Assembly: GCA_029261795.1 (NCBI GenBank)
Contig: JAJDAP010000108.1
Coordinates: forward strand, 20,915 to 84,914
Reading direction: 5' to 3'
Origin: Deltaproteobacteria bacterium
Lineage (GTDB): Bacteria; Myxococcota_A; UBA9160; UBA6930
Length of the DNA: 64,000 nucleotides
Position numbers and translations under genes: made by a program. The notes beneath the pieces were generated by a model. That model saw only the letters and a list, made by a program, of their open reading frames with translations. It had not been told where the DNA came from and searched no databases. Position 1 is the first letter of the stretch. Each line of letters begins with the position of its first letter. Of this stretch, positions 9,650 through 59,033 are shown in pieces.

Positions 9650-10664
9650 ATGATTCACGACCTCAAGACCCTGGTGCTCTCGTTCCATCCGGCCGTGGCG
9701 TTCGATACGCCCGAGGAGGCCCGGGTCGAGCAACTGGCAGACCGGGTCGCCGAGGAGCTGCGGATGCCGGTCTTCGTCTGGTCCGTGACGGGCGGCCTCG
9801 TCCAGAAGCCGACCGCGCACGCGAACCGGAGTACCGCCGATCCGATTGCCGTCCTCCAGCATCTCGCCGGCCTGACGGTCGAGGGAATCTTCCTGCTCAA
9901 GGACTTCGCGAAGTTCCTGGACGACCCGAGCGTGTGTCGCGCATTCCGCGATGCGGCCTCGAACCTCTCACACACCGCGTCCTCGATGTGGATTACCGGT
10001 GCGGGCCATGATTTCCCGCCGGATGCGGACGCCGAGATCGTGCACTTCGAAATGGCCCTTCCCGGCAAGAAGGAACTCGGCGAGGTCGTCGCCACGGTGG
10101 TGCGCTCGCTGCGCACGCGAATTGGCGCCACCGTCAGTCTCTCGAAGCCCGAGCTCGACCAGCTGTTGACGTCGCTCTCCGGGATGACCGCCAACCAGGT
10201 GCGTCAGGTGGTCGCGAGGCGTCTCCGAGCGCATCTTCGCCACCCTGCTGACCTGGCTGCAGGAGAAGAAGGAGTCCGTCTTCGTCGTCGCTACCGCCAA
10301 TGACGTCTTCAAGCTCCCGCCGGAACTGATGCGGAAGGGTCGCCTCGACGAGATCTTCTTCGTCGACCTTCCCGATGGCCAGGAGCGCGGCACGATCTTC
10401 CACATCCACCTGGAACGACGGAAGCAGGACGTCGCCGCTTTCGACATGGCATCCCTCGTCGGTGCGAGCGACAGCATGAGTGGCGCGGAGATCGAACAAG
10501 CCGTGATCGCGAGCCTCTACGGCGCGCTGCACGAGAAGAGGTCGCTCGACACCGAGATGATCCTCTGCGAACTGCGAAGCACAGTGCCTTTGTCCGTTTC
10601 GCGCTCGGAGGATCTCGACCGCCTGCGCGAACTCGCACGCGATCGCTTCGTCCCTGTTCGTTAG
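9650..10664 (+). pseudogene. Ycf46-like AAA ATPase with internal deletion and frameshift (Walker A/B region missing)
   Basis: N-terminal part (MIHDLKTLVLSFHPAVAFDTPEEARVEQLADRVAEEL..SLSGMTANQVRQVV) is in one frame; the C-terminal AAA part (GVSERIFATLLTWLQEKKESVFVVATANDVFKLPPELMRKGRLDEIFFVDLP) resumes in another frame at about 10213-10222 with no P-loop between. Confidence 0.8.
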
Positions 10665-10698
10665 TTCACGGGCGTCCCGGCTCGAGCCTCGTGCTAGG

Positions 10699-11688
10699 TC
10701 AGGAGTGCGCGCGCCAAACCGTGAAGCTCGCGGTACCCGCCACTTCTTCGGCGACGCCGAACCCGCACAACATTCGCCCCACCGGCACCGTACGTTGAGC
10801 CACGATCCACAAGTCGCCCCCCGACCGGAGCCGCTGCGCGGCGTCGCGGCAGAGGGCACGCACGATCTCGTAGTGCTGGTCCCGGCCGGTGTGGATCGGC
10901 GGATTGCTGACGATCCGGTCGAATCGAAGCTCGGCTGGAAGCGCGCCGAGACCATCGCCTGCATGGAGCCTGGCTCGAGGTAGGTTCCGCCGGGTGGCTT
11001 CGAGCGCGAGCGGGTCGACGTCGAGCGCATGGAGTTCGAGCCCGGGATCGAGGCTCGCCAGGTACATCCCGACCACTCCGGCACCGCAGCCGAAATCGAG
11101 GATCCGGGAATCGGCTTCGACCGCCGTCAGCGCCGAGAGCAAGAGCGCCGTAGCCGGGTCGAGATGCCCGTGGGCGAACAAGCCCGGGAACGAGACCCAC
11201 GAAGCCTCCCCGTTCGGGAAGCTCCCGTGCGCGCTCTCCATCCAGTCGTCGAGTGAACCGCGGAAGCCGACGCCGCCGCGGATCGTCCCGTGCCACACAC
11301 GACAGTGTCGGCGTGCGTCGAGGGTCCGCAGGTTCTCGGCAACCTCGCTGAGCCCTTTGTCAGCGGAGCGGATGCCTTCGTCGTTGGCACCGACCACGAG
11401 CAGGGGTGCCCCTGGTTCCGTGCGGGCGGCGATGGCGTGAAGCGCCATCTGGAAGGCTTCGCGCCCCTTCGGTAAGCGCACGATCGCGGCATTGCCGTGT
11501 CCCTCGCTGGGCCAGGCAGTCCCCTCGGCCCCGTAACGCTTCCAGGAAAGGATCGACGCGGTCTCCCGCACGGCGGCCTCGAGCCGCCCACTCACATCGC
11601 CGGCCACCCAGACAGGACCGACAAGGCCGAGTTCGGGGAGGACGCCCGCGACGACTTCGGCCGCCCCGGTCTCTCGGTCTTTCTTCAC
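10699..11688 (-). CDS. Class I SAM-dependent methyltransferase, RsmC/RlmG-like (rRNA guanine-N2)
   Basis: VLDFGCGAGVVG-type motif (ILDFGCGAGVVGMYLAS), NPPIHTG, LWIVAQR; overall RsmC-like layout. Confidence 0.8.
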   Translation of the reverse strand: MKKDRETGAAEVVAGVLPELGLVGPVWVAGDVSGRLEAAVRETASILSWKRYGAEGTAWPSEGHGNAAIVRLPKGREAFQMALHAIAARTEPGAPLLVVGANDEGIRSADKGLSEVAENLRTLDARRHCRVWHGTIRGGVGFRGSLDDWMESAHGSFPNGEASWVSFPGLFAHGHLDPATALLLSALTAVEADSRILDFGCGAGVVGMYLASLDPGLELHALDVDPLALEATRRNLPRARLHAGDGLGALPAELRFDRIVSNPPIHTGRDQHYEIVRALCRDAAQRLRSGGDLWIVAQRTVPVGRMLCGFGVAEEVAGTASFTVWRAHS

Positions 11689-55065: not shown

Positions 55066-55485
55066 CTAGGGATCGGCTGTCAGCCCCGCCCGCGCGGCGG
55101 CCGGGTTCGGTAGCGGCGTTCGCCAGTTCGTGATCTCCGCCGCCTGGTAGGCCGTGAAGTCTCCGGGCAGGTCGTCGCTGCTCCAGCGCTCGAGAACCCA
55201 GGTCAGCAGCCGCGCGAGGCGGGCGTCGTCGATCGACGCGTTGGTCACGCCGGGTACGCGCGCCAGGTATTCGCGCCCACCGGGGAACTGCGCGAGCCGC
55301 CCTACACCGTGGAGAGACGGGATGTCGCCTCCGCCCTGGCCACTGGCGAGGTGGCAACCCTGGCACTGCAGGGCGTAGTCGAGGACAACGGCCTCCATCG
55401 TATCGGCGCGGGCAGAAGCTTCGCTGAACAGCGCGACGAACGCGCTCGCGAAGGCGCCGAGAACGACCGGTACGGCTCCATCCAC
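55066..55485 (-). CDS. Small monoheme c-type cytochrome-like protein, exported
   Basis: Signal peptide; DYALQCQGCHLASGQGGGDIPSLHG (CxxCH). Confidence 0.8.
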   Translation of the reverse strand: MDGAVPVVLGAFASAFVALFSEASARADTMEAVVLDYALQCQGCHLASGQGGGDIPSLHGVGRLAQFPGGREYLARVPGVTNASIDDARLARLLTWVLERWSSDDLPGDFTAYQAAEITNWRTPLPNPAAARAGLTADP

Positions 55486-55538
55486 TTTCGTTCGCTCCTC
55501 CGCTACCTCGGGCCCGCCGAGTGTGGTACTCCAACCAG

Positions 55539-55838
55539 ATGGCAGCCTACTTCATCGCGCAAAACCAAGTGAACGATCCGGCTCTCTATCAGGAATACGC
55601 CCAGGGGGCGGGCCCGACGATGGGACCAGCCGGCGGAAAGATCATCTCCTTCGACGTCGGTGCCGAGAGCATCGAGGGGTCGCCGCCCGGACCGCAGACG
55701 GTGATCATCGAATTCGAAAGCACAGAGGCCGCCAAGGCCTGGTACCACTCCGACGCCTATCAGGCCGTCGTCGGCAAGCGGCTCGCCTCGACCGAGGGCT
55801 ACGCGATCATTTCGCAGTCCATGAACATCGGTGGGTGA
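55539..55838 (+). CDS. DUF1330 family protein
   Basis: MAAYFIAQNQVNDPALYQEYAQGAGPTM...VIIEFESTEAAKAWYHSDAYQAV. Confidence 0.88.
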   Translation: MAAYFIAQNQVNDPALYQEYAQGAGPTMGPAGGKIISFDVGAESIEGSPPGPQTVIIEFESTEAAKAWYHSDAYQAVVGKRLASTEGYAIISQSMNIGG

Positions 55839-55886
55839 GGCCCGCTCGCCGAGCTAGTGTGCCGATCAGACAACGAGGAGACGACG

Positions 55887-56171
55887 ATGATCGCGATGGT
55901 GGCGACACTCAAGATCAAGGAAGGCCACGAGGCCGAGTTCGAAGCCGCAGCGAAGCAGCTTGCGGCGGCAGTGAGAGCCAACGAGCCCGGCAACCACCTC
56001 TACCAGCTCTGCAAGGGTAGTGAGCCCCAGACCTACTACTTCGTCGAGCGCTACGAGAGCGAAGAAGCGCTGGCCGCCCACGGGGCTTCGGCACACATGA
56101 AGGAGCACGGCGGCGCCATGGGTCCGCACATGGCCGGCCGTCCCGAGATCTTGAAGCTGGAAGAACTCTAG
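55887..56171 (+). CDS. Antibiotic biosynthesis monooxygenase (ABM) domain protein
   Basis: MIAMVATLKIKEGHEAEFEAAAKQLAAAVRANEPGNHLYQL...YYFVERYESEEALAAH. Confidence 0.88.
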   Translation: MIAMVATLKIKEGHEAEFEAAAKQLAAAVRANEPGNHLYQLCKGSEPQTYYFVERYESEEALAAHGASAHMKEHGGAMGPHMAGRPEILKLEEL

Positions 56172-56185
56172 GCGCCCGGCCGCGC

Positions 56186-56764
56186 CTAACGTTCGGGCTG
56201 CCTCTCGGCGGCCGCGCCCACGACGAGGGCGACCGAGCAGTTGTAGACCTGGGTACTCGTTCCGACACACCAATTGATGTCGTTGCTGCGCATCGGCGAG
56301 TAGATCGGGCGATCACCCTCGTTGCGATTGCAGAAGCAGCGCCCGCAGAAATCGCGGCCGCAGCAATCGTTGTAGGAGATGACGTAGTCGCGTCCGTCTT
56401 CCGGGTTGCGGCAGGTGCCGAGCCAGGTGACGGCGGACATCTCGGTTCCCGGCGGGCAGGTCGAATGGGTGCCGCCGCAGCAGCCGCACAGGAAGCCGTC
56501 GATGGCGCAGTGCCGCCAGTAGTCACAGCCGAGCGGGTCACCCTCCGGGCTGTCCCGGGGCGGTTCGCCTTCCTGGGTGGGGAAGCGCTCATCGGCCGCA
56601 GCCGCTCGGGCGACCGGCAGCAGCGGCAGCGCTGCACCGCCGGCCAGGACGGTGCCAAGGCGGGAGAGGAAGTGGCGCCGGGAGAGGCCGCGTGCCCAGC
56701 TTCGGCTCATGCGTTCGAAGACGCCGTCGAAGCGACTCACGATGCGGGGGTTCGCCACGCTCAC
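56186..56764 (-). CDS. mauA: TTQ amine dehydrogenase light (beta) chain, MauA-like, Tat-exported
   Basis: Tat signal SRRHFLSRLG; CDYWRHCAIDGFLCGCCGGTHSTCPPGTEMSAVTWLGTCRNPEDGRDYVISYNDCCGRDFCGRCFCN...NDINWCVG...VYNC aligns colinearly with MADH beta. Confidence 0.9.
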   Translation of the reverse strand: MSVANPRIVSRFDGVFERMSRSWARGLSRRHFLSRLGTVLAGGAALPLLPVARAAAADERFPTQEGEPPRDSPEGDPLGCDYWRHCAIDGFLCGCCGGTHSTCPPGTEMSAVTWLGTCRNPEDGRDYVISYNDCCGRDFCGRCFCNRNEGDRPIYSPMRSNDINWCVGTSTQVYNCSVALVVGAAAERQPER

Positions 56765-57972
56765 GGGGCTACCAACAGGCCGCCGGACAAACCGGTCGAT
56801 TCGATGTCACGCAAGTGTTCTCCAGTCAGTGCATCGTGGACGCTCACCCCGGCCGTTTCTCGGCTGCCCAGGAAGAGGAGCGGCGTGGCATCCTGGGAGA
56901 CCGCCAAGTTCGAAACGTCTGCGGCCGGCAGCACCGCAGACATCATCCACCCGAGGAAGCTCTCTGCCTCGATGCCCGCGAGGCCGCGAAGAAACGCTGC
57001 GGTCAGGTTGGACGGCTCGACGATGGCCGTCCGCTTCCGATCGGCCAATGTGTAGACCCACACTTCGGGGCCGCCGTCCTTGTGGCTGCTGGGGCCGCCC
57101 TGGTGCATGGCGGAGAAGAGGCGGCCGCTGGCCTTGTGGAGTGCCAGGTGCTGATTGCCGCCGACCCGCCATCCGTCGGCGCGCTGGTCGTCGCTGAGCA
57201 GGGACCAGGGCTCTGCGGAACTCGGCCGTTCCCCTCCGAAATCGACGGCGTGGGCGAAGCCTTCGAACGAAACGAACAACCAGCGGGCACCATCGATCTG
57301 CACGCCCTTCTCGGTGACGGGATCGTTGGTGGGGTCGAAGAAGCGCTCGCTTCGGCTGCGCGCCAGCTCCAGACCGGCTTCGTCCAGATCGATGCGCTGC
57401 GCGGTTCCGTCGCCGCAAAGCTGACCGAAGGAGCGCGGACCCGCTTCGAACACCAGGGCGCAGCCAGCTGTCTGGATCTCACCGCTGAGCGTCCGGCTCT
57501 CGAGATCGACGACCGAGACCGAGGTGGCCGGGGTCTGGTTGAAGACGAGCAAGAAGCGGTCGGCCAACACAGCGCCGAGGGCGACGCCGTTGCCGTTGTC
57601 TGCGCGCTTCGACGGAATGATCACTTCGCCGCTGACGGCAAGACTCTCGGCGTCGTAGATCGTGACGAGATCGGTGCGCTCGCCGCGGTGGCCGCGGGTG
57701 TAGACGGTCTCGGCGATATAGAACTCGCCACGTGCCCGCGAGACACGCGGGTGGATTCCGCCAACGCCCTGGCCGCCGTTGAGCATGCCGAGCATGCGAC
57801 CGTTCCCACCGTCGAAGAGCGCGCTGCGGCGTAGCACGGTATCGCCCACGAAGAGCCAGTGATCTTCGAGAGCGGGCAGTCGCTCGCTCCGGCCCTGAGC
57901 CTCCGTCTTCAGCTCGGCGCTGGCAGGAAGGGCCACGAGGAGCGCGAGGACGAGAGCGATCCGGTTGAACAT
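56761..57972 (-). CDS. mauB: TTQ amine dehydrogenase heavy (alpha) chain, MauB/AauB-like
   Basis: Signal peptide MFNRIALVLALLVALPASA; VVDLESRTLSGEIQTAGCALVFEAGPRSFGQLCGDGTAQRIDLDEAG, FFDPTNDPVTEKGVQIDGARWLFVSFEG, HLALHKASGRLFSAMHQGGPSSHKDGGPEVWVYTL. Confidence 0.92.
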   Translation of the reverse strand: MFNRIALVLALLVALPASAELKTEAQGRSERLPALEDHWLFVGDTVLRRSALFDGGNGRMLGMLNGGQGVGGIHPRVSRARGEFYIAETVYTRGHRGERTDLVTIYDAESLAVSGEVIIPSKRADNGNGVALGAVLADRFLLVFNQTPATSVSVVDLESRTLSGEIQTAGCALVFEAGPRSFGQLCGDGTAQRIDLDEAGLELARSRSERFFDPTNDPVTEKGVQIDGARWLFVSFEGFAHAVDFGGERPSSAEPWSLLSDDQRADGWRVGGNQHLALHKASGRLFSAMHQGGPSSHKDGGPEVWVYTLADRKRTAIVEPSNLTAAFLRGLAGIEAESFLGWMMSAVLPAADVSNLAVSQDATPLLFLGSRETAGVSVHDALTGEHLRDIESTGLSGGLLVAP

Positions 57973-58124: not shown

Positions 58125-59033
58125 ATGCGAATTGGCGTGATGGCAGGAGCGACCGGCGGAGAAGGAACCATCGAGGGCCTGATCGCTCGCGCCAAGGATG
58201 TGGAATCCCGCGGCTTCCATTCGATGTGGGTGGCCAACATCTTCGGGCTGGATGCGATCGGCGCATTGGCCGTCGTCGGGCACGAGACCTCGCGCATCGA
58301 ACTCGGCACCGCCGTGGTTCCGACCTACCCCCGACACCCCGTCGCGATCGCCCAACAAGCGCTCACGACCCAGGCGGCCAGCGGCGGCCGGTTCGCTCTC
58401 GGCATCGGTCTCTCTCACAAGATCGTGATCGAGGACATGCTCGGTTTCAGCTATGCGAAGCCCGCCTATCACATGCGCGAGTACCTCGAGGTGCTGACGC
58501 CGCTGATGCGCGGCGAGCCCGCGAAGTTCGAAGGTGAGCACTACCGCGTGAACGCGGGCCTCCAGGTCCCGGGTGCGTCTCCGGTGCCGGTGCTGATCGC
58601 CGCGCTCGGCGACCGGATGTTGCAACTTGCCGGTCAGTACACGGACGGGACGATTCTCTGGATGACGGGTCCCGCGACGATCGAGGATCACATCCGTCCC
58701 AAGATGTTCGCCGCCGCCAAGGAAGCCGGCCGACCGGAGCCGCGCGTCGTCGCGGGTTTCCCGATCGCCCTCACCAACGACCCGGACGCGGCCCGTACCG
58801 CGATCGGCGAGAACCTGGTGATGTACGGACAGCTGCCCTCCTACCGGGCCATGCTCGACAAGGAAGGTGCCGCCGGCCCGGCCGACATCGCCATGGTCGG
58901 CGACGAAGCCGCCATGGATGCGCAACTCGACCGCTTGCGCGATGTCGGCGTCAGCGACTTCGATGCCGCGATCGTGCCCGTCGATGACGAGACCGACGCG
59001 CGCACACTCGAGTACCTGCAGAGCAAGCTCTAG
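58125..59033 (+). CDS. LLM-class F420-dependent oxidoreductase
   Basis: ESRGFHSMWVANIFGLDAI, IELGTAVVPTYPRHPVAIAQQALTTQAASGGRFALGIGLSHKIVIEDMLGFSY. Confidence 0.9.
   Translation: MRIGVMAGATGGEGTIEGLIARAKDVESRGFHSMWVANIFGLDAIGALAVVGHETSRIELGTAVVPTYPRHPVAIAQQALTTQAASGGRFALGIGLSHKIVIEDMLGFSYAKPAYHMREYLEVLTPLMRGEPAKFEGEHYRVNAGLQVPGASPVPVLIAALGDRMLQLAGQYTDGTILWMTGPATIEDHIRPKMFAAAKEAGRPEPRVVAGFPIALTNDPDAARTAIGENLVMYGQLPSYRAMLDKEGAAGPADIAMVGDEAAMDAQLDRLRDVGVSDFDAAIVPVDDETDARTLEYLQSKL

Follow-up and report, generated by a model that had tools for sequence, protein, structure and literature searches.

The window, by which we mean the whole stretch of 64,000 nucleotides analysed, carries the heavy- and light-chain genes (B and A) of a tryptophan tryptophylquinone (TTQ) amine dehydrogenase as a bare, adjoining pair. 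This pair is probably part of a split system of the aromatic amine dehydrogenase (AADH, aau) type, in which the light chain would be matured in trans by a non-cognate MauE/MauD pair (E-D) encoded on another contig of this genome, C119. As read from the gene trees, the present gene set is a mosaic: B-A falls into a myxococcal clade, E-D into one of proteobacterial type, and the E-D pair is not the native partner of this lineage. The subunit genes represent a further member of a known enzyme type, and the new element is the split, mosaic gene set. Since bare pairs and E-D in trans recur in other genomes and the function of the swap is a prediction, the arrangement is moderately surprising.

The features of the locus are given in Table 1. 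A sequence-only reading of this DNA had described a 4-bp overlap of the two subunit genes on the minus strand, plus-strand genes on either side and the absence of mauE, mauD and mauG nearby; the gene calls agree with the layout, and none of the three genes was found around B-A in the window. Both predicted proteins matched their Pfam families (Me-amine-dh_H, 2.4e-32; Me-amine-dh_L, 3.4e-50), and a strong ribosome-binding site, GGAGGAAACCATG (GGAGG), stands ahead of the heavy-chain ATG. In alignments with PDB entries, the light chain could be aligned with the light chains of methylamine dehydrogenase (MADH) and AADH across the whole mature length. The two TTQ tryptophans and the catalytic aspartate fall in invariant columns, and their spacings equal those of MADH and AADH. 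We take Trp114 to correspond to Trp109 of AADH and Trp57 of MADH, Trp165 to Trp160 and Trp108, and Asp133 to Asp128 and Asp76, respectively. Thr172 of AADH is replaced by Ser177. A promoter scan of the B-A region gave nothing useful. With frames and signals intact, the evidence argues strongly for a pair of TTQ amine dehydrogenase subunits of the AADH type.

Table 1. Features of the amine dehydrogenase locus and its flanks (positions in the window)
Feature	Position	Strand	Remarks
TTQ amine dehydrogenase heavy chain (aauB/mauB-like)	56761-57972	-	403 aa, Sec-type signal peptide; Pfam PF06433; ATG start at 57972, stop at 56761
TTQ amine dehydrogenase light chain (aauA/mauA-like)	56186-56764	-	192 aa, twin-arginine leader (RR at residues 29-30), 14 Cys; Pfam PF02975; GTG start at 56764
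Overlap GTGA, heavy-chain stop/light-chain start	56761-56764	-	4 bp; mauE-mauD cannot fit between
Trp114 codon, first TTQ tryptophan	56423-56425	-	light-chain alignment
Trp165 codon, second TTQ tryptophan	56270-56272	-	light-chain alignment; spacing 51 residues, as in MADH/AADH
Asp133 codon, catalytic base position	56366-56368	-	light-chain alignment; 19 residues from first Trp, as in MADH/AADH
Small monohaem cytochrome c, CQGCH	55066-55485	-	profile match 158 bits; kin of the cytochrome after aauA
DUF1330 and ABM-domain genes, between light chain and cytochrome	55521-56171 (ABM 55857-56171)	+	outside the system
LLM-family oxidoreductase, right neighbour of insertion site	58125-59033	+	outside the system

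The assignment to the AADH type rests on several comparisons. Among solved structures, the heavy chain matched AADH best (2h3x, 146 bits, 1.1e-41), MADH reaching at best 116 bits (1.8e-32). The scores against the MADH equivalog models stay below the cut-offs for both subunits (TIGR02658, heavy chain, 109.8 bits against 454.45; NCBI light-chain model, 180.9 against 196.85), and the heavy chain is placed far from MADH in the tree. Moreover, the light chain has 14 cysteines as in AADH, whereas that of MADH has 12. The sequence-only reading would have been overturned by a position of the pair firmly inside canonical MADH; the TIGR02658 score, the best structures and the tree distance all place it elsewhere. 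Its suggestion of a divergent subfamily holds in so far as the pair belongs to an AADH-type clade that is common in Myxococcota, and otherwise does not. The substrate may be a primary amine, a tentative assignment of class because long branches in the trees make the placement of the AADH references relative to the window clade unsure.

The gene order in related loci was studied in the light-chain regions of 25 related genomes plus 80 other named genome records, which were searched with profiles of five genes. A few loci occur twice because their genome is represented in both collections, as with L057 and L111. G014, a genome of the same order, matches CP070734.1 without a difference at this locus; that record is a 'Deltaproteobacteria' MAG placed by NCBI under Myxococcota. 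The order B-E-D-A was found in 84 of 110 light-chain loci with a linked heavy chain, the bare order B-A in 23 and a partial order in 3. A small monohaem cytochrome c directly follows A in all 75 testable B-E-D-A loci. Annotated aau loci show the order aauB-mauE-mauD-aauA-cytochrome-cytochrome, so that the space between the AADH subunits, previously ascribed to an extra orf, is in fact held by mauE and mauD. AADH-type loci are represented by more than 580 matches in species genomes. Among the neighbourhoods of 106 such loci, 36 contain TonB-dependent receptors, 27 aldehyde dehydrogenases and 23 TetR regulators, hinting at uptake and at further oxidation of the product; none of the three was seen adjoining the window pair.

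Two further observations were made on light chains of this collection. In one group (L038, L040, L041, L045, L047, L049, L053, and L057), which carries the motif FLASCC or FLSSCC followed by YNS, the cysteines at positions 93 and 176 (window numbering) are lost together, suggesting from the alignment the loss of one disulfide. In genome G030 (locus L050, contig C79, 9238-10289), a TTQ light chain stands orphaned, lacking both heavy chain and E-D, and the haem motif of the accompanying cytochrome has changed to CSAWH; this is probably a decaying system. A glutathione peroxidase-like frame on the minus strand of the same locus (about 10380-10836) contains an in-frame TGA (VNVASK*GLTPQY) that is likely a selenocysteine codon.

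The genome to which the window belongs (5.74 Mb in 139 contigs, 90.7% complete) contains a single heavy chain, a single light chain, and one match each to MauE and MauD. The latter two form an adjoining pair on C119 with a 4-bp overlap and intact motifs (CGC in MauE, CPVC in MauD). The pair lies after two acyl-CoA dehydrogenase genes, homologs of which are adjacent also in G002 and G010, there without a strong MauE. Contamination as the origin of C119 was ruled out by its synteny, extending for about 8 kb, with contig C125 of G001, a genome of the same genus. Of the explanations offered earlier for the missing helper genes, trans-encoded maturation factors thus find their candidate in the C119 pair, and different maturation factors lose their ground to the intact mauE-mauD on that contig. 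The occurrence of mauE, mauD or mauG elsewhere in the genome had been named as evidence against the sequence-only reading; E and D do occur there, and no gene can be named MauG.

The mosaic origin of the two pairs had not been foreseen. In the heavy-chain tree, the window falls into a clade of 19 sequences, mostly from Myxococcota, 17 of which come from B-E-D-A loci (SH-aLRT 100). The tree of B and A combined agrees with this, and a tree constrained to group the window with the proteobacterial-type sequences was rejected (p-AU 1.1e-6). In the E-D tree, the C119 pair and the E-D of G006, a genome of the same family, are sisters (100/100) and lie within the proteobacterial-type clade (99/98); constraining the C119 pair to the myxococcal clade was likewise rejected (p-AU 1.5e-4). 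Members of the myxococcal B-A clade carry E-D genes of their own. G006 possesses a bare B-A of a third subfamily ahead of a full proteobacterial-type operon. In the simplest history, two full sets would have coexisted and then undergone reciprocal loss; B-A could equally well have been inserted directly. Well-supported branches of the heavy-chain tree require the bare layout to have switched at least 10 times. In G034, a bare pair and a stand-alone E-D are likewise in conflict (p-AU 0.006 to 0.025, for a group picked after the tree had been seen), which makes it a possible but weaker second mosaic case. The choice of groups after inspection of the tree applies partly to the two main AU tests as well, where the likelihoods differ by 77 and 103 units.

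Given this disagreement, a native mauE-mauD might lie in sequence that the assembly lacks and mature the enzyme, the C119 pair serving something else or being a relic. The draft state of the assembly leaves room for such genes, and phylogenetically the C119 pair is not the expected partner. We nevertheless consider this rather unlikely: any one gene has a priori a chance of about 9% of being missing, the C119 pair is the only one found and has all its motifs intact, and a second light chain that it could serve is absent.

The flanks of B-A bear on the question whether the pair is functional at all. In G001, a gap of 29 bp separates ABM from LLM, and B-A is absent from it; this empty site implies that the window pair was either inserted or lost cleanly and in one piece. 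The cytochrome gene of Table 1 lies 700 bp downstream of A on the same strand, with two plus-strand genes between, and likely encodes the electron acceptor of the enzyme, as judged from its family; the cytochrome tree was too weak to place it. One might suppose that B-A is an inserted fragment that left its maturation set behind and is decaying or was functionless from the start, as the clean empty site in a genome of the same genus and the decayed-looking precedent of G030, with its light chain lacking a heavy chain and its CSAWH cytochrome, would allow. The intact frames, the retention of the catalytic residues and of all 14 cysteines, the strong ribosome-binding site, and the presence of both a right-family cytochrome and an E-D pair in the genome make this improbable.

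Light chain and helper genes are also associated beyond this genome. Among 41 genomes, 23 have both a light chain and a strong MauE, 3 the light chain only, 2 MauE only and 13 neither (Fisher p 2.7e-6); G038, G030 and G015, all drafts, showed no strong MauE. A strong MauD is present in 11 of the 15 named genomes with bare or partial pairs: the genomes of L122, L101 and L146 have it within a second full operon, those of L164, L135 and L154 in an E-D pair that is unlinked, and the other five at the same locus; the remaining 4 are drafts. E-D in trans thus recurs among these genomes. That light-chain maturation in this clade is independent of MauE and MauD, other periplasmic oxidases forming the disulfides, would suit the draft genomes that have a bare pair and no strong MauD or MauE, but is very improbable in view of this co-occurrence, of the MauD genes in 11 of 15 genomes and of the E-D pair in the window genome itself.

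Regarding completion of the cofactor, the sequence-only reading had laid emphasis on the missing mauG, which is uninformative, since annotated AADH loci have no mauG nearby either. No PF03150 gene was found near the window pair; its paralogs in the genome are located on C33, C39 and C22. The five full CCP_MauG proteins (three on C33, one each on C39 and C22) are encoded away from both B-A and E-D. Four of them have a tyrosine at the position of Tyr294 of MauG, and none has Trp199, which rules out naming any of them MauG. No conserved diheme gene that could substitute for MauG was found among the families present in at least 8 AADH-type loci. Near the window locus, no azurin or amicyanin was detected; of the two Copper-bind matches in the genome, that on C22 is part of a larger NosD-like protein and that on C34 lies at a contig end. 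A separate locus (L029; G000:C33:60000-79999) contains two tandem diheme proteins of the MauG/CCP family, preceded by a very long protein resembling multicopper oxidases and followed by one that is Rieske-like and by a large molybdopterin oxidase, possibly arsenite-oxidase-like.

The genes and residues described here are observed, and the steps that would link them are taken from known MADH and AADH systems or inferred. The heavy chain would be exported by Sec and the light chain by a Tat-type route, as suggested by its RR leader. The disulfides of the 14-Cys light chain would then be formed by the membrane redox protein MauE and the thioredoxin-like MauD from C119, a role that we infer for this pair. 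TTQ would be closed by an oxidase, no mauG being linked to AADH loci. The periplasmic enzyme would oxidise a primary amine and pass the electrons to the cytochrome encoded at 55066-55485.

MauE and MauD, whose genes normally lie between those of the subunits, are usually regarded as dedicated partners. A genome in which the only E-D and the only B-A come from different branches amounts to a natural swap experiment. It suggests that a strict match between helpers and light chain is not needed, which would simplify production of such enzymes in a foreign host. A broader reading, to which we give even chances, is that MauE-MauD constitutes a separable and exchangeable module, that TTQ subunits have repeatedly lost their own pair and use an unlinked one of another subfamily, and that TTQ of the AADH type is completed without MauG by some other oxidase. 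With AADH-type loci widespread and unlinked to mauG, the question of TTQ completion can now easily be sampled.

The mau cluster of Paracoccus denitrificans (mauR-F-B-E-D-A-C-J-G-M-N, with M and N annotated as NapG- and NapH-like) contains an amicyanin, mauJ, mauG and two ferredoxin-type genes in addition to what aau loci have. Compared with it, the window is devoid of amicyanin, mauF, mauG, mauM and mauN, and B, A, E and D are homologous in the two systems. The aau loci of the Pseudomonas aeruginosa RW109 plasmid (LT969519) and of Cupriavidus pinatubonensis p1, with the order aauB-mauE-mauD-aauA-cytochrome(s), share with the window both subunits, the TTQ residues, the 14-Cys light chain, the small cytochrome c and the absence of mauG, F, L, M and N nearby. 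They differ in that E-D of the window genome is located on another contig, belongs to another clade and does not lie between B and A, which overlap by 4 bp, and in that two foreign genes part the cytochrome from A. In the tandem BA-BEDA-cytochrome loci of Gammaproteobacteria and G006 (L035, L115, L119, L125, L128, and L140), a bare B-A shares the E-D pair of its neighbour; there E-D belongs to the adjoining operon, whereas in the window genome it stands unlinked and alone.
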